Made by a program: the position numbers and the translations under genes
Notes under the pieces: generated by a model
Told to the model about the DNA's origin: nothing
Database searches by the model: none
What the model saw: only the letters and a program-made list of their open reading frames with translations
Shown here: one piece after another, positions 4,239 through 15,972 of the stretch
Layout: every line of letters begins with the position of its first letter
How positions within the stretch are numbered: the stretch's first letter is position 1
Source: a virus
Reading direction: 5' to 3' (one strand)
DNA: 39,417 bases
IMG/VR virus record: IMGVR_UViG_3300006641_000065
Coordinates: 1-39,417 of that record

Positions 4239-4448
4239 GTGTCAATCATTTTTCGAGTGGTGGTAGCATCTCTGGCAACTTACAAGCCACAAGATACGCC
4301 GCGCCCGAAACGGGGTCGACCGCCTAAAATAAAAGACATTGACCTTTCCAAATCAAAGGTGATCCATGACCAAATTGATGATGGTCTGCGAGGCGAAACT
4401 CCAGCTAGAAAAGCAGAGCGACGGCGCAGAGCCTACGGGCAAGATTGA
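4239..4448 (+). CDS. Small basic hypothetical protein (uncertain)
   Basis: I do not recognise this one. It would be a 69-residue, strongly basic protein with an AT-hook-like KRGRPPK and an Arg-rich C terminus. It begins with GTG without a good ribosome site, lies in the same frame as the portal gene just after the portal stop, and overlaps the first 83 bases of the protease gene. The amino-acid pattern looks protein-like, and the region 4233-4365 would otherwise be an unusually long gap for this operon, but start and expression are doubtful. Confidence 0.3.
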   Translation: MSIIFRVVVASLATYKPQDTPRPKRGRPPKIKDIDLSKSKVIHDQIDDGLRGETPARKAERRRRAYGQD

Positions 4449-5160
4449 AGCGCGTGTAACCACCTGGGGCGCACGCGAAGGCGCAGACGGCCGCAAGTTT
4501 TTCTACAAGCCCGAAGGATTTATGTCCTGGGCCAAAGAGTTTTCCAAAGCTGGCCGGCCCCTGCCCATGTTTGTCAACCACGAGGCCGACGCCATTCCCG
4601 TTGGCGAGTGGACGATGTTCGAGTTCGACGACGAAGGCATGACCGCCTCGGGCCGCATCTACACCAACACGACCGCCGGCTCTGACCTGTATAAAGTTAT
4701 GACCGAATCGCCCAATATGTTTGGCGGCGTTTCGGTCGGCGCTTACGCGGAATCGTATCAATGGGTCAAAGAGGACGGCTCGCCGATGACCGTCGGATCT
4801 GATGACCCCTACGAGGACGGCTACTTTCAGATCACCAACGGCGGTCTGCGCGAGGTATCCGTCGTCATGTACCCAAACAACCCGGCCGCAGAGGTGTCCA
4901 AGCTGGAGTTCTTCCGGCCCGACGGCTCTGCCGACCTGAAGATTTTGGAAAAGGCCCTGCGCGATGCTGGGCTGTCCAAGAAAGATGCGGTCGCTGCCGC
5001 ATCTACGTTCAAGCGCGTACTGGAGCAGCGCGACGCTGCGCCGGCACCGGTTGAACCTGCGCCGAGTCAGAGCGAGTCTGATGCGGAAGCGACCAAGGAA
5101 ATTCTTGCGGCTCTTGAGCAGCGGGAACTCATCAAGTACCTTTCTAAGAGGATCAAATGA
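4366..5160 (+). CDS. Prohead maturation serine protease (HK97 family), with scaffold-like tail
   Basis: Cleaves the N-terminal delta domain of the capsid protein and itself during head maturation. The protease domain is the first 200 or so residues: catalytic His in FVNHEAD (H72), catalytic Ser in GGVSVGAYA (S123), and the conserved GLREVSVV strand after it. Length is 264 residues; the last 70 are helical and charged, which may act as internal scaffold. The ATG follows an AAAGGTGAT ribosome site, which favours this start. Stop and capsid start overlap (ATGA), the usual portal-protease-capsid order. Confidence 0.93.
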   Translation: MTKLMMVCEAKLQLEKQSDGAEPTGKIEARVTTWGAREGADGRKFFYKPEGFMSWAKEFSKAGRPLPMFVNHEADAIPVGEWTMFEFDDEGMTASGRIYTNTTAGSDLYKVMTESPNMFGGVSVGAYAESYQWVKEDGSPMTVGSDDPYEDGYFQITNGGLREVSVVMYPNNPAAEVSKLEFFRPDGSADLKILEKALRDAGLSKKDAVAAASTFKRVLEQRDAAPAPVEPAPSQSESDAEATKEILAALEQRELIKYLSKRIK

Positions 5161-6494
5161 AAGAAATCATCGAAAAGCTGGACGCCATTGAGGCATCCAC
5201 GAAAGAAACCGCCAAGGTGGAGGCCGTGGCCGCTGCTGAAGCGATCAAGACCGAATTCGCCGAAAAGGTCGCCGCGCTCGAGGCCAAGATCGCCTCTGTG
5301 CAAGCGCCCGCGATCATTCGTCCCATTGCCAAGACCGTTCGCACCGACGTTAACCGCGCCGTGCGTGAGCAGCTTTCCTCCTTCTACAAGGGCGGCAAGA
5401 TGCTCGAAAAAGAGCTGCAAATGTTTGCCGACGAGTCGCAATACCAAGCCTACTTGGCAGAAGCCTCGGCGCTAACCGCCGGCGGTGACGGCAAGGGCGG
5501 TCGGACTGCCTATGACCCCGTGTTCGTCGCTTTGCGTCTGCGGAACCCGCTGCGCGGCGTCTCGCGCACCGTGGCCACCGATGGCTCGTCCTACCAGTTC
5601 CGCGTCAAGACCGGCAACGCTGGCGCTCAATGGGGCTACGCGATCCAGAACAACGGCGCGTCTACCACGGAAGATACGAGCATTTGGCAACTGGTGCTCA
5701 AGGACATTAACGTCCAATTCCCGATTCGTACCGCCGCGCTGGACGACATTGATGGTTTGGAAGCTAACGTGGTTGACGATATGCTGGCCGAATTTGCCCA
5801 GTCTGAAGCAACCTCGATGATCCAGAACAACGACCAATCTGGCACGGGCACCTCGGTGGCTACCGGCGGCGCTGATGGTCTGCGCGGTTTGGATCAATAC
5901 GCGGGTAACAATGCCACCTATACCGGCGGCACCACCTCTACGCCGTCGTTCGGTTCGTCTGGCACTGGCTCCTCTAGCGGTCTGCACAACCTGGCCACCT
6001 ACGACCAGCTCACGACCAACGCGAACACGGTGGGCGCTAATAACATCTCCTACAAAGACGTTATTAATTTCATCTACGCGCTGCCGCAGCAGTACTGGAC
6101 TCCGGACGCTAAGTTCGTGATTAGCCCGATCCTGCTCAACGCCATCCGCGCGCTGACCGACGACCAGAAGGCACCGATCTTCAACCGCGTTGAAGGTCTA
6201 TCTGTTGACGGTATCGTGGGCCAGTTGCTCGGCTTTGATGTGGTGGTTAACAAGTATCTGGACACCCCGTCGCAGACCACCACCGGCGCAGCAGGCACCA
6301 ACAGCCTCTATCCGATGTACTTTGCCGATTGGTCGCGTTTCCACACCATTGTGGATCGCCTCAATATGGTAATGAGAAGGTATGACCAAACGCTCCCAGG
6401 ATTTATTACTTTCTACGGAGAAAAGCGTTTGGCCACCTCGGTTCGTGACCCCAACGCCGGCGTGCGCTATCGCTCCACCGGCACCGCGACCTAA
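5157..6494 (+). CDS. Major capsid protein 1 (HK97 fold, with delta domain)
   Basis: Main shell protein of the icosahedral head. The 445 residues begin with a coiled-coil, Glu/Lys/Ala-rich delta domain of roughly 100 residues that acts as scaffold and is expected to be removed by the upstream protease near EASALTAGG. The rest is an HK97-fold body with family-type segments such as LRNPLRGVSRTV, FPIRTAALDDID and the C-terminal LPGFITFYGEKRLATSVRDP. The body aligns along its full length with the next gene product, so this is one of two tandem paralogues. Cleavage site position is inferred from the alignment, not seen directly. Confidence 0.95.
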   Translation: MKEIIEKLDAIEASTKETAKVEAVAAAEAIKTEFAEKVAALEAKIASVQAPAIIRPIAKTVRTDVNRAVREQLSSFYKGGKMLEKELQMFADESQYQAYLAEASALTAGGDGKGGRTAYDPVFVALRLRNPLRGVSRTVATDGSSYQFRVKTGNAGAQWGYAIQNNGASTTEDTSIWQLVLKDINVQFPIRTAALDDIDGLEANVVDDMLAEFAQSEATSMIQNNDQSGTGTSVATGGADGLRGLDQYAGNNATYTGGTTSTPSFGSSGTGSSSGLHNLATYDQLTTNANTVGANNISYKDVINFIYALPQQYWTPDAKFVISPILLNAIRALTDDQKAPIFNRVEGLSVDGIVGQLLGFDVVVNKYLDTPSQTTTGAAGTNSLYPMYFADWSRFHTIVDRLNMVMRRYDQTLPGFITFYGEKRLATSVRDPNAGVRYRSTGTAT

Positions 6495-6500
6495 TGAAAC

Positions 6501-6523
6501 GGGGAGGGCTAATCACCCTCCCC
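6501..6523 (+). terminator. Hairpin between the two capsid genes
   Basis: A perfect 8-bp stem GGGGAGGG/CCCTCCCC with a 7-base loop lies in the 55-base gap between the two capsid genes. Only three Ts follow it, so it is more likely a partial terminator or an mRNA stabiliser that sets the ratio of the two capsid proteins than a full stop. Confidence 0.5.
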
Positions 6524-6549
6524 TTTCCAGTTTCACCTAGGAATTTCAA

Positions 6550-7569
6550 ATGACCACGACTACCGAAAAAATTCTAGACGGCATCAAACGGGCCATTCAC
6601 GAAGGCGGCAAACAGAATATTGATCTGCGTGAAGCCTCGGCGATTACCGGCTCGGGTTCTGGTGTCGGTGGTAATGTAGTTTTCGATGATGCGTTCGCCG
6701 CGCTGCGGTACGCCAACCCTTTTCGCATGGGTTCCCGGCAAATCACGGTCGCTGGCTCTGACGCTCAGTTCGTCGCCAAGACCGGTAACGCCGCGAACAG
6801 CACGAACCCCTGGGGCTACACCTTCACGCCCAACAGCGGATCGCCCAACATTGACACGACGATCTGGCAATTGCCGGTGCGCGTTGTCGTGGCCCAGCTT
6901 CCCATCCGCACGGCTGTTTTGTCCGATGTGAACAACCTGCCGCAGACGCTGGTTGAGGACATGATGCTTGAGTTTTCGCAACTTGAAGCCGCCTCGATGG
7001 CTATTAATGACGACCAAGCTGGCTCTACGACCACCTCCACCGGAGCGACCAGCGGCTTGCGCGGTTTGGATTCGTACACCAGCGCCGGGGCCAGCGCTTT
7101 TGGCACCTCGGGCACGGCCATTACCAACGGCATTCACAGCATCGCCACGGTGTCCCTTGGCGGCGTCACGGTGACCTATAACAAGATGGTCGATATTGCC
7201 AAGGCATTGCCTTCGCAGTATTGGTCCCTGCCTGGGACCGCCTGGCACATTTCGCCCGACCTGATTCTGGCTTTGCGCCAACTCAAAGACACGCAAGGCC
7301 TGCCGCTGTTCCTTGAGATCGGCGACAAAGACGGCGCGTCGATTGGTAACGTGTTCGGGTTCCCGGTGATCCCTAATCCGTACCTGTCTGCCGCGTTCCC
7401 GATCTATCTTGCCAACTGGCCGCGGTTCTTTACTATCGGAGACACCGAGCAGTTCAACGTGCAAATGTACGAACAGACCGCGCCCGGTTTTGTGACCATG
7501 TACGCTGAAAAGCGCGTTGTCAGCACGGTTCTTGACCCGTTCGGTGGTGTCCGGGCCAGCGCTGCTTGA
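6550..7569 (+). CDS. Major capsid protein 2 (HK97-fold paralogue without delta domain)
   Basis: Second capsid-like protein, 339 residues. It aligns with the body of the first one: EASAITGSG with EASALTAGG, LRYANPFRMGSRQ with LRLRNPLRGVSRT, LPIRTAVLSDVNNL with FPIRTAALDDIDGL, SGLRGLDSY with DGLRGLDQY, PGFVTMYAEKRVVSTVLDP with PGFITFYGEKRLATSVRDP. The long N-terminal delta domain is absent, leaving only about 30 residues before the shared junction, so it resembles an already matured subunit. It may form vertices, a minor shell component, or a second shell protein co-assembling with the first. The ATG follows an AGGAA ribosome site. Confidence 0.88.
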   Translation: MTTTTEKILDGIKRAIHEGGKQNIDLREASAITGSGSGVGGNVVFDDAFAALRYANPFRMGSRQITVAGSDAQFVAKTGNAANSTNPWGYTFTPNSGSPNIDTTIWQLPVRVVVAQLPIRTAVLSDVNNLPQTLVEDMMLEFSQLEAASMAINDDQAGSTTTSTGATSGLRGLDSYTSAGASAFGTSGTAITNGIHSIATVSLGGVTVTYNKMVDIAKALPSQYWSLPGTAWHISPDLILALRQLKDTQGLPLFLEIGDKDGASIGNVFGFPVIPNPYLSAAFPIYLANWPRFFTIGDTEQFNVQMYEQTAPGFVTMYAEKRVVSTVLDPFGGVRASAA

Positions 7570-7577
7570 GGTAACGA

Positions 7578-8249
7578 ATGAGCGCAACCGACTACGTGAT
7601 GGGTTACCCCTTCGCAGGGGTGACGCGCAATCCGTTCAACTACGTCAAGGTTGAGCAGATCGACCGCGACGTCGTGACGCCGTGGCTGACGTTGGACGAA
7701 ATCACGCAGCAGATTAACCTCTACCAAGACGAGAGCCAAGACGTCTACCTTAAATCGCTCGAGCTGGCCGTGCGCCAGGCCGTCGAGGACTATCTGGGGA
7801 TGAGCATTTTCCCGGTGTCCTACCGGGTCTATTACGGCGGCGAAAGCCTGGTAGCGTCGCCTTGCTGCCTTGATCTACCCGAGGTGAGCCAGAACCAGTA
7901 TCCCAGCCAACCCGGTCTGACGATTGACGCGGTGCGCTACTACAACAGCAACGTGCCGGCCACGCTGACCACGATTGCCGCGTCAACCTATCAGTACGAC
8001 CCCAGCGGTAACAAGCTGATGTTGCAGGCATTGCCGAGCGATGTGAATAGCAACATGACCGCGCCAATCATGGTCGATTATTCGACCGTGGCGAACCCGT
8101 TGCAAACTTACCCGGTGATTAAGCAGGCGGCGCTGTTGCTCTATACGCACCTGTACAACAACCGCAGCAACACCACGGCGGTCAACCTGCGCGACATTCC
8201 GTTTGGGTTCGATCAGCTACTTCGACCCTATAAGCCGCTGGTGATGTAA
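7578..8249 (+). CDS. Head-tail connector (HK97 gp6-like adaptor)
   Basis: Likely forms the ring that binds the portal and extends the DNA channel. The 223-residue protein has the short helical core typical of gp6/gp15-like adaptors: LTLDEITQQINLYQDESQDVY followed by LKSLELAVRQAVEDYLG (residues about 37-75), then a beta-rich region. It follows the capsid genes, the standard slot. Its stop overlaps the next start (TAATG). The first 35 residues are extra compared with short family members. Confidence 0.75.
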   Translation: MSATDYVMGYPFAGVTRNPFNYVKVEQIDRDVVTPWLTLDEITQQINLYQDESQDVYLKSLELAVRQAVEDYLGMSIFPVSYRVYYGGESLVASPCCLDLPEVSQNQYPSQPGLTIDAVRYYNSNVPATLTTIAASTYQYDPSGNKLMLQALPSDVNSNMTAPIMVDYSTVANPLQTYPVIKQAALLLYTHLYNNRSNTTAVNLRDIPFGFDQLLRPYKPLVM

Positions 8250-9043: not shown

Positions 9044-9538
9044 ATGGCCCTGCCCAATAAAGTTTTGCCTGGTTTTAGCGCGGCGCTCTACTGCCAGCCG
9101 ACCTCTACGCCTACGCCGCTGACCGTGGCGCAACTGTCGCTTGTCGCCAGCGTGTCGCCCATCGCCGTTTCCGGCAACCTGCTGCCTGTTGAGGCAATCC
9201 CGGCGTTCGGCCAGGATGACGCGATGGCGAATTTCTCGGTCGCTGGCTCTCGCCAATCCGACAAGATTCCCACGCAGTCGGCACCTACGTCTATGACCAT
9301 TACGGCCGCATGGAACCCGTCCGATGCCAACCTGCTGCTGATGCGCGGCGACGCCTACAACGGCACCGTTGATCGCACGTTTGTTATCTCGGCGACCGAC
9401 GGCACCAATATCGTCTACTACGCTTTCAACGGTCGCGTGTCGCAGTTCCAAATCGACGCCCAACCCGGTGCCGAGGCGAAATGCGTGTTTACCGTGCATC
9501 CGCGCGGCAATCAATACGGCTGGTCTAACAACGCCTAA
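9044..9538 (+). CDS. Tail tube (major tail) protein 1
   Basis: Predicted building block of the tail tube. The 164-residue protein begins MALPNKVLPGFSAALY, an N terminus common in major tail proteins, and has the alternating beta pattern of the tube fold, including SMTITAAWNPSD and a long C-terminal stretch FNGRVSQFQIDAQPGAEAK. A GGAG ribosome site precedes the ATG. The next gene encodes a close paralogue: about 89 percent of the last 115 residues match by hand alignment, while the region at residues 15-50 differs strongly. Confidence 0.85.
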   Translation: MALPNKVLPGFSAALYCQPTSTPTPLTVAQLSLVASVSPIAVSGNLLPVEAIPAFGQDDAMANFSVAGSRQSDKIPTQSAPTSMTITAAWNPSDANLLLMRGDAYNGTVDRTFVISATDGTNIVYYAFNGRVSQFQIDAQPGAEAKCVFTVHPRGNQYGWSNNA

Positions 9539-9548
9539 GAGGTGAAAC

Positions 9549-10067
9549 ATGGCTCTCCCCAATAAAGTTCTACCCGGTTTTAGCGCCGCGCTGTGGATGC
9601 AATCCGCAGCTACTCCTACGCCCCTGACGACCGCCAACCTGTCGGTTTGGTCGGCGCAGGTTGCCACCATCGTCGGCACAGCCGCTGGCGGTACTGGTGC
9701 GGCCGGTGTCGCGGTTCCCGTCGAGGCGGTGCCTGCGTTTGGCCAGGACGATGCGGTCGCCAACTTCGCGGTGGCTGGCTCGCGTCAGTCGGACAAAATC
9801 CCGACGCAATCCGCGCCTACTTCCATGACGATTACCGCCGCCTGGAACCCGTCCGACACGGCCCTGCTCCAAATCCGTTCAGACGCCTATAACGGGACCG
9901 TAGACCGCACTTTCGTCGTGTCGGCATACGATGGCACCAACACCGTCGCTTATGCGTTTAACGGCCGCGTTAGCCAGTTCCAGATTGACGCCCAGCCTGG
10001 CGCTGAAGCTAAATGCGTGTTCACGGTTCACCCGCGCGGGAACCAGTACGGCTGGAGCAACAGCTAA
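9549..10067 (+). CDS. Tail tube (major tail) protein 2, tandem paralogue
   Basis: A 172-residue second copy of the preceding protein. The shared C-terminal part carries about 13 substitutions in 115 residues. The variable part at residues 15-55 carries an extra Gly/Ala-rich stretch (GTAAGGTGAAGVA). Synonymous sites differ widely, including TCG versus AGC serine codons, so the copies are old and held under protein-level selection. Possible roles are a mixed tube, a tip or collar tube ring, or a decorated tube subunit. Its stop overlaps the start of the next gene (TAATG). Confidence 0.85.
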   Translation: MALPNKVLPGFSAALWMQSAATPTPLTTANLSVWSAQVATIVGTAAGGTGAAGVAVPVEAVPAFGQDDAVANFAVAGSRQSDKIPTQSAPTSMTITAAWNPSDTALLQIRSDAYNGTVDRTFVVSAYDGTNTVAYAFNGRVSQFQIDAQPGAEAKCVFTVHPRGNQYGWSNS

Positions 10068-10273
10068 TGTCCGGCGTCTTTGAGGCTGTGCAATTGCTGA
10101 TGGCTGTTCAGGGCGATCTCGCTCTGGCAGCTCGCGGCATGGAAGTCGACCAAGCCGAGCTGGCAGAAGCAATTGCCGATGCCGACGCCGATAGCGCCGA
10201 GGCGGTGGCCATGCGCTACCTTGTCAAACCGCAGGCTGCGGCCCCAGCGCCGGACCCAGACCCTGAAGAATAA
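10067..10273 (+). CDS. Small acidic protein after tail tube genes
   Basis: Not recognised. The 68-residue product is helical and strongly acidic (VDQAELAEAIADADADSAE) and ends in an Ala/Pro/Asp tail. The start is placed at the ATG that overlaps the tube gene stop; an upstream in-frame ATG at 10013 would lie inside the tube gene. Position between tube and chaperone genes suggests a role in tail assembly, but nothing in the sequence proves it. Confidence 0.65.
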   Translation: MSGVFEAVQLLMAVQGDLALAARGMEVDQAELAEAIADADADSAEAVAMRYLVKPQAAAPAPDPDPEE

Positions 10274-14937: not shown

Positions 14938-15539
14938 ACATCATTACGCCGGTCGAAGATACCAACAACATTCGTATCGCCGATTTCATCCGAATTAACA
15001 ACGGCACGGACATTTTCCGGTTCACGACCGCAGGGTCTAACCAGCTTGTGCCGGCGGTCGACGCGACCGAATTTAGCGCGGTCGGCACGCTGATTAAGGT
15101 CGGCAATGTCCAGCGCGACATTAAATCTACGGCCAACGAGACAACGGTAACGCTAGTCGGCATTGATACGGCGATGCTTGGATTCGTTCTTGGGCAGTCG
15201 GTCAAGGGATCGGCGATCCAGATGTGGCATGGGTTCTATGACACCGATGGTGTTTTGATTGCCTCGGGCGGCTCTGGAGGTTTATATCAATTCTTTAGCG
15301 GCTACATCACATCGTTCCAAATCAGCGAGCAATGGATGGAGGACGTTCGAATGTATGCCGGCACGATCACGGTGTCGGCGTCGTCGGTGCAACTGATTTT
15401 GCAAAACCGAATCGCCGGCCGTTACACAAACGACAACGCTTGGCAGTTCTTCAATCCTGGCGATACCAGCATGAATCGCGTGCCATTCATTCAGAACATC
15501 AATTATTACTTTGGCAAAGATGCCCCAGCGAATTCGTGA
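14934..15539 (+). CDS. Minor tail tip protein (lambda gpL-like position)
   Basis: A 201-residue protein. The ending ILQNRIAGRYTNDNAWQFFN PGD followed by an Asn/Tyr tail resembles the end of many tip proteins, where an R-R-Y-T-x-x-D-Q motif precedes a PGD motif. Its N-terminal half is beta-rich. It overlaps both neighbours, the previous tail gene and the following GNAT gene. A structural role between tape measure and J-like tip is likely; details are not visible. Confidence 0.6.
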   Translation: MNIITPVEDTNNIRIADFIRINNGTDIFRFTTAGSNQLVPAVDATEFSAVGTLIKVGNVQRDIKSTANETTVTLVGIDTAMLGFVLGQSVKGSAIQMWHGFYDTDGVLIASGGSGGLYQFFSGYITSFQISEQWMEDVRMYAGTITVSASSVQLILQNRIAGRYTNDNAWQFFNPGDTSMNRVPFIQNINYYFGKDAPANS

Positions 15540-15972
15540 GGCGACGCCGGTCGATCTGCCGCAGCTACTGAATATGTTGCGGAAATATCGGGAGCAAACG
15601 CCGCTAGACTTTTTGTCCGAGGCCGATAATGCGTCTTACATCACGCAAATGCTGTGCGAAATCATGGCGGGCCGGGGGGTGGTGCTGGTGGCCGAGGACG
15701 ATGGCCTGATGGGAATGTTGATTGCCGGCATTCACCCGAGCCGCTGGTCGCCGGCGCATCTGCTATTGACCGAGCTGGCCTGGTGGGTTGAGCCAGAACA
15801 CCGAGGCGGGACCACGGGGCACCGGCTCTTAAAACGATACATTGAGGCGGGACAAAAGATGAAAGAACAGGGACGCATCTGCAATTTCTTTATCAGCAAG
15901 ATGAGCAATAGCCCGGACCTAGACTATGGTCGTTTCGGGTTCCGCTATCTAGAACAATTCTGGGTGCAGTAA
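15520..15972 (+). CDS. GNAT-family N-acetyltransferase in the tail tip cluster
   Basis: A 150-residue acyl-CoA-dependent transferase-like protein. The GNAT core is visible as strand GVVLVAEDDGLMGMLIAGI, strand LLTELAWWVEPEHRGGTTG with an R-G-G-x-x-G version of the acetyl-CoA pyrophosphate loop, helix LLKRYIEAGQKMKEQG, and the C-terminal YGRFGFRYLEQFWVQ. The ATG at 15520 was chosen over an in-frame TTG at 15511; it overlaps the previous gene by 20 bases. Many siphophages carry such an enzyme before J. It may modify a virion or host protein; the substrate is unknown. Confidence 0.8.
   Translation: MPQRIREATPVDLPQLLNMLRKYREQTPLDFLSEADNASYITQMLCEIMAGRGVVLVAEDDGLMGMLIAGIHPSRWSPAHLLLTELAWWVEPEHRGGTTGHRLLKRYIEAGQKMKEQGRICNFFISKMSNSPDLDYGRFGFRYLEQFWVQ

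Follow-up and report, generated by a model that had tools for sequence, protein, structure and literature searches.

Tandem HK97-fold capsid genes in a widespread group of small phages suggest a head of two shell subunit types

We analyzed the whole stretch of DNA held as IMG/VR virus record IMGVR_UViG_3300006641_000065 (positions 1 to 39,417, referred to here as the window) and found that it carries an HK97-type head operon in which the capsid gene is doubled. The first capsid gene encodes a main HK97-fold capsid protein with an N-terminal scaffold (delta) domain (MCP1), and the second encodes an HK97-fold protein that is without the coiled-coil scaffold tower (MCP2). The best reading of this arrangement is a head built from two types of shell subunit, in which MCP2 would most likely be present in the virion as a minor, low-abundance subunit. 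As for its position in the shell, we consider it on balance probable, by analogy with known heads, that MCP2 is the pentameric vertex protein.

The genes for the large terminase, the portal and the S78 prohead protease lie 5' of the capsid pair, while a head-tail connector gene lies 3' of it. A DNA methyltransferase gene (462-1127) is found immediately 5' of the large terminase gene; no small terminase was recognized. The HK97-type prohead protease (4366-5160, plus strand; Pfam Peptidase_S78, 2.3e-07; PHROG head maturation protease, 6e-11) is expected to remove the scaffold domain. On the same strand follow MCP1 (445 residues, 5157-6494; Pfam Phage_capsid, 1.7e-26), MCP2 (339 residues, 6550-7569; Phage_capsid, 1.4e-14) and, directly after the pair, the head-tail connector, or adaptor (7578-8249; Pfam Phage_connect_1, 7.3e-07; PHROG head-tail adaptor). 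Two tandem major tail protein genes, both of PHROG 158 (9044-9538 and 9549-10067), and an acetyltransferase-like gene (PHROG 1249, 15511-15972) amid the tail genes were also observed.

An earlier note on this DNA had called the two capsid reading frames at the positions given above, which we confirmed, and had described their products as paralogues rather than as a capsid protein with a decoration protein. Comparison by BLASTP agrees with that description, as 138 of 343 aligned columns are identical (40%, E 1e-70) in an alignment that starts at the EASA junction and runs to the C-terminal end, and the shared motifs that had been pointed out (EASA-[LI]-T, FPIRTA/LPIRTA, LRGLD and PGF-T) are all present. 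Both proteins pass the cut-off of 24.2 bits for Pfam PF05065 Phage_capsid, with 93.7 bits for MCP1 and 54.7 bits for MCP2, and both match the PHROG 'major head protein'. A decoration protein is an accessory that is non-paralogous to the shell subunit and bound outside the shell; since MCP2 shares the HK97 fold with the MCP and is its paralogue, it is not such a protein.

When profiles built from 21 homologues of each protein were compared with solved structures, the first match in both cases was the MCP of RcGTA, the Rhodobacter capsulatus gene transfer agent (1.7e-09 for MCP1 and 2.8e-07 for MCP2). We then modeled MCP2 with AlphaFold2 from 63 sequences (mean pLDDT 69.6, pTM 0.70). The model matched the RcGTA MCP (6tb9) in Foldseek at 4.7e-17 with a TMt of 0.69, and superposed on RcGTA/HK97 capsid subunits with a VIA Z of 21.3 over 255 residues (rmsd 3.8). 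The earlier note had named a structure prediction without the HK97 fold as the outcome that would count against it; the model instead matches that fold, whose defining parts are the E-loop, spine helix, A-domain and P-domain. The corresponding model of MCP1 was poor (pLDDT 52), and its fold was therefore assigned from sequence homology.

The two proteins differ in what precedes the EASA motif, which is a segment of about 101-105 residues (median 105) in MCP1 and of about 26-27 residues (median 26) in MCP2 across approximately 145 distinct pairs. In MCP1, residues 1-101 (5157-5459, plus strand) make up the predicted scaffold domain, recognized from the alignment and from helices modeled with low confidence at residues 2-47, 61-78 and 93-106. 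The junction motif EASALT that follows (residues 102-107; 5460-5477, plus strand) is conserved in the alignment and lies near the presumed maturation cleavage. MCP1 has both of the marks of HK97-type assembly, namely a helical N-terminal scaffold of ~100 residues and a protease gene upstream. In MCP2, residues 1-27 (6550-6630, plus strand) are conserved and are modeled as an amphipathic helix (4-18), a turn and a strand (21-25), followed by the junction motif EASAIT (residues 28-33; 6631-6648, plus strand), in which E28, S30 and T33 are invariant in 63 sequences. Across these sequences the hydrophobic positions 4, 8, 9, 12 and 16 share one face of the helix, and an alternating strand at positions 22, 24 and 26 leads into the invariant E-x-S-x-x-T.

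A similar element is known from the scaffold of phage D3, which consists of a coiled-coil tower of 70-80 residues and a helix-turn-strand P-domain-associated region (PDAR, residues 81-109, with the helix at 81-94 and the strand at 104-109), followed by a flexible arm that bears the cleavage site (PMC12749128). In structural alignments, the match of the MCP2 model to the prohead chains of D3 (prohead-1, 9osb) and HK97 (prohead-I, 8fqk) begins at model residue 3, which pairs with chain residues 81 and 76, respectively; for the mature chains of HK97 (1ohg) and D3 (9ous) the alignment begins near residue 51. We infer that the tower was lost in MCP2 and that a clamp-like, PDAR-like element was kept, or regained, the likeness being one of shape in a model whose pLDDT in that segment is 57-68. 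Profile alignment of the 26 N-terminal residues of MCP2 with the MCP1 scaffold did not score above shuffles (p 0.5-0.7), so descent of the element from the MCP1 scaffold is not established. The same result led us to drop a start-to-start likeness seen by eye ('EKLDAIEA'/'EKILDGIK'). It had been claimed that only the first gene has the ~100-residue scaffold domain, and this holds for the coiled-coil tower, but MCP2 does keep a conserved helix-turn-strand of 26 residues. The accompanying suggestion that MCP2 enters assembly in a matured-like form fares less well. MCP2 is probably not fully matured at that stage, because a helix-turn-strand still occupies the PDAR position of the D3/HK97 scaffold and its EASA-[LI]-T junction is that of MCP1. 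Since this junction motif is kept in both capsid proteins, MCP2 may well be trimmed too, as is presumed for MCP1.

We next consider how widely the pair occurs. Scans of IMG/VR with MCP1 and MCP2 retrieved several hundred relatives. These phages are small, come mostly from freshwater and form a widespread group. Scanning bacterial genomes gave four contigs, in metagenome-assembled genomes (MAGs). The pair is present in the order MCP1 to MCP2 and in the same orientation in 205 fetched loci (201 simple and 4 frame-broken), and the remaining 12 end at a contig edge beside the capsid gene shown. No loss of MCP2 was seen among relatives with enough flank. As some loci overlap one contig, the number of distinct protein pairs, 147, is the safer count; a search for the same pair in related phages, which had been proposed earlier, thus yielded these pairs and also the cultured phage P19250A. 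The four frame-broken loci (L005, L073, L130 and L197), in which one capsid gene is split in two frames, are single cases that may stem from errors in assembly or sequencing.

A tree built from 30 genomes places MCP1 and MCP2 in distinct clades (SH-aLRT 81 and 96), and so the duplication is older than the diversification of the group. The available outgroups are remote (22-26% identity, one MCP each), which makes the root of this tree uncertain. Both capsid genes are under strong purifying selection, with dN/dS for close pairs of 0.05-0.18 in MCP1 and 0.03-0.16 in MCP2, and neither is therefore a decaying copy. Analysis of co-evolution gave no special signal beyond that of neighboring genes, the distance correlation being 0.73 for MCP1 and MCP2 versus 0.81 for MCP1 and the portal. 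A baseline for tandem Phage_capsid genes was sought in 143 bacterial genomes, of which only 7 had matches and none a new tandem pair, too few for a rate.

The capsid genes are separated by a G+C-rich, terminator- or attenuator-like hairpin (6501-6523, plus strand; GGGGAGGG-CTAATCA-CCCTCCCC, then TTTCC) with a z of -3.3 in the window, where the counts from a generic terminator scan equaled those of shuffles. The MCP1-MCP2 junctions of 108 distinct relatives all have a best hairpin with a dG <= -14 kcal/mol, whereas an equally strong hairpin occurs at the protease-MCP1 and MCP2-connector junctions in only 5.6%. The stem is followed by at least four T within 8 bases in 88 of the 108, and in 45 of 59 genomes this hairpin is the strongest or second strongest with a T-run in the head-tail region. 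Because the T-run in the window is short (TTTCC), termination at its own hairpin may be weak. An extra long hairpin (about 17 bp) accompanies the usual one at the capsid junction in a subgroup comprising loci L021 and L024. Another strong hairpin (10101-10132) is found in the window after the second tail-tube gene, and several relatives have one at a comparable distance, about 3.1-3.6 kb past the MCP1 stop.

A strong hairpin directly 3' of the MCP gene is also found in HK97, KS9, RHph_X2_25 and Azospirillum Cd, each of which has a single MCP, and this ruled out the hairpin as a mark of two-capsid phages. Such a hairpin usually delimits the abundant capsid message on its 3' side, and the MCP2 gene lies beyond it with the low-copy connector genes. 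This position on the far side of the post-MCP hairpin suggests that MCP2 is produced in lower amounts than MCP1. As the hairpin is shared with single-MCP phages, it suggests low expression of anything downstream and does not speak for a vertex role.

Among known systems, T4 offers a head in which two paralogues divide the shell. Eleven of the T4 vertices are pentamers of gp24, which is a paralogue of gp23, and the two proteins lose propeptides of 10 and 65 residues, respectively; in other well-studied phages pentamers are built from the MCP (PMC9958956). Like gp23 and gp24, MCP1 and MCP2 are HK97-fold paralogues encoded close together among head genes, with an N-terminal segment that is much shorter in the second; in T4 this segment is a propeptide, as it may be in MCP2. 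A terminator-like hairpin also follows the main capsid gene in T4, after gene 23 and before segD and gene 24. T4 differs from the phages described here in being a large, prolate myophage whose scaffold proteins are separate, and its two paralogues are about 20% identical, as against 40% for MCP1 and MCP2. An hmmscan of Pfam (E <= 1) gave Phage_capsid as the sole match of MCP2 and none to the gp23/gp24 families. The likeness of MCP2 to gp24 would therefore be one of way of working, and the duplication looks independent of that in T4.

MCP1 itself resembles HK97 gp5 and the D3 MCP, with a fused scaffold domain of ~100 residues and a protease gene just upstream, and HK97 also shares the hairpin after the MCP gene and a similar genome size of about 39 kb. 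HK97 and D3, however, have a single capsid gene, whose product serves for hexamers and pentamers alike. The nearest solved relative, by profile for both proteins and by fold for MCP2, is the RcGTA MCP (6tb9, 6tba). To our knowledge, RcGTA has a single capsid protein with no second paralogue alongside. The Methylophilaceae phage P19250A (KX815270) has an identical gene order and both capsid genes, at 59% and 58% identity, with one tail-tube copy as against two in the window; its MCP2 (gene P19250A_0006) is annotated 'hypothetical protein'. This phage is a cultured siphovirus of the LD28 clade (PMC7678222).

We propose a T4-like arrangement because the paralogy, the shortened scaffold, the low-expression position and the fixed pairing match those of T4. 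Of the possibilities raised in the earlier note, a division between hexamers and vertices thus agrees best with the data. Two HK97-fold subunit types derived from an old gene duplication would build the head, with the tower-bearing MCP1 assembling the hexamer lattice together with the portal and the protease. The scarcer MCP2 would be excluded from the scaffold coiled-coil bundles, would dock by its PDAR-like helix-turn-strand and, like T4 gp24, would most likely supply the pentamers of the eleven vertices that the portal does not occupy. If the head were T=7, it would contain about 55 copies of MCP2 and about 360 of MCP1. Small HK97-type phages mostly form pentamers from their one MCP, so that a vertex protein is in principle unnecessary. 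The main rival to the vertex placement, which we regard as rather unlikely, puts MCP2 elsewhere in the shell, at fixed or random hexamer places or in the ring around the portal. Such a mixed lattice would explain the paralogy, the fold and the co-conservation equally, and mixed shells with irregular tiling are known from Family 2B two-component encapsulins, whose two HK97-fold paralogues co-assemble in one shell (PMC12407261). Those encapsulins are, however, compartments of cells and have no portal, protease or scaffold; where scaffold towers are bundled in a hexamer, a tower-less subunit would be a poor fit, and the low-expression position suits 55 copies better than hundreds.

Readings in which MCP2 is no lasting part of the phage head were also weighed. 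A temporary plug or size regulator that acts during assembly and then leaves, so that MCP2 is absent from the mature virion, would fit the low-expression position and the short N terminus, but we judge it improbable, as strong selection conserves the whole core, long P-domain strands and spine helix included, as would be expected of a lasting member of the lattice. We give marginally less credence still to an alternative particle apart from the phage head, for example a smaller or non-phage shell. MCP2 does keep the full core fold, and a gene transfer agent capsid is the closest resemblance of both proteins; yet every relative has MCP2 inside the head operon, flanked by MCP1 and the connector, the protein itself lacks a scaffold tower, and the genes examined showed neither a second portal nor a second terminase. 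That MCP2 is a functionless spare or decaying duplicate is scarcely credible and already contradicted. Tandem doubling does occur here, since roughly one relative in three carries the nearby tail-protein gene in two copies (25 of 68, as against 43 without the doubling, among them P19250A), but that duplication comes and goes, whereas the MCP1/MCP2 split predates the group, and the low dN/dS of MCP2 and its retention in every relative speak against decay.

A search of the open-access literature, outside which the P19250A genome paper (Moon 2017) falls, found no description of this capsid pair. T4 already provides an example of an additional HK97-fold subunit, but a small phage in which the scaffold is fused to one paralogue while the other is tower-less appears to be new. 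Well-studied tailed phages mostly use one protein for hexamers and pentamers, T4 being the classic exception. It is possible, though we hold it with some doubt, that small HK97-type siphophages of an abundant lineage have, independently of T4, divided the work of the shell, with one protein forming hexamers and bearing the scaffold and the other forming vertices without a tower, only the PDAR clamp being retained in it. If this is true, the bundling and clamping functions of the scaffold are separated naturally within one head, and the phages would provide a second independent case, available in hundreds of environmental genomes and a cultured isolate, in which the role of the tower could be tested both for pentamers and for the control of head size. 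A gene family currently annotated as hypothetical would also gain a function.
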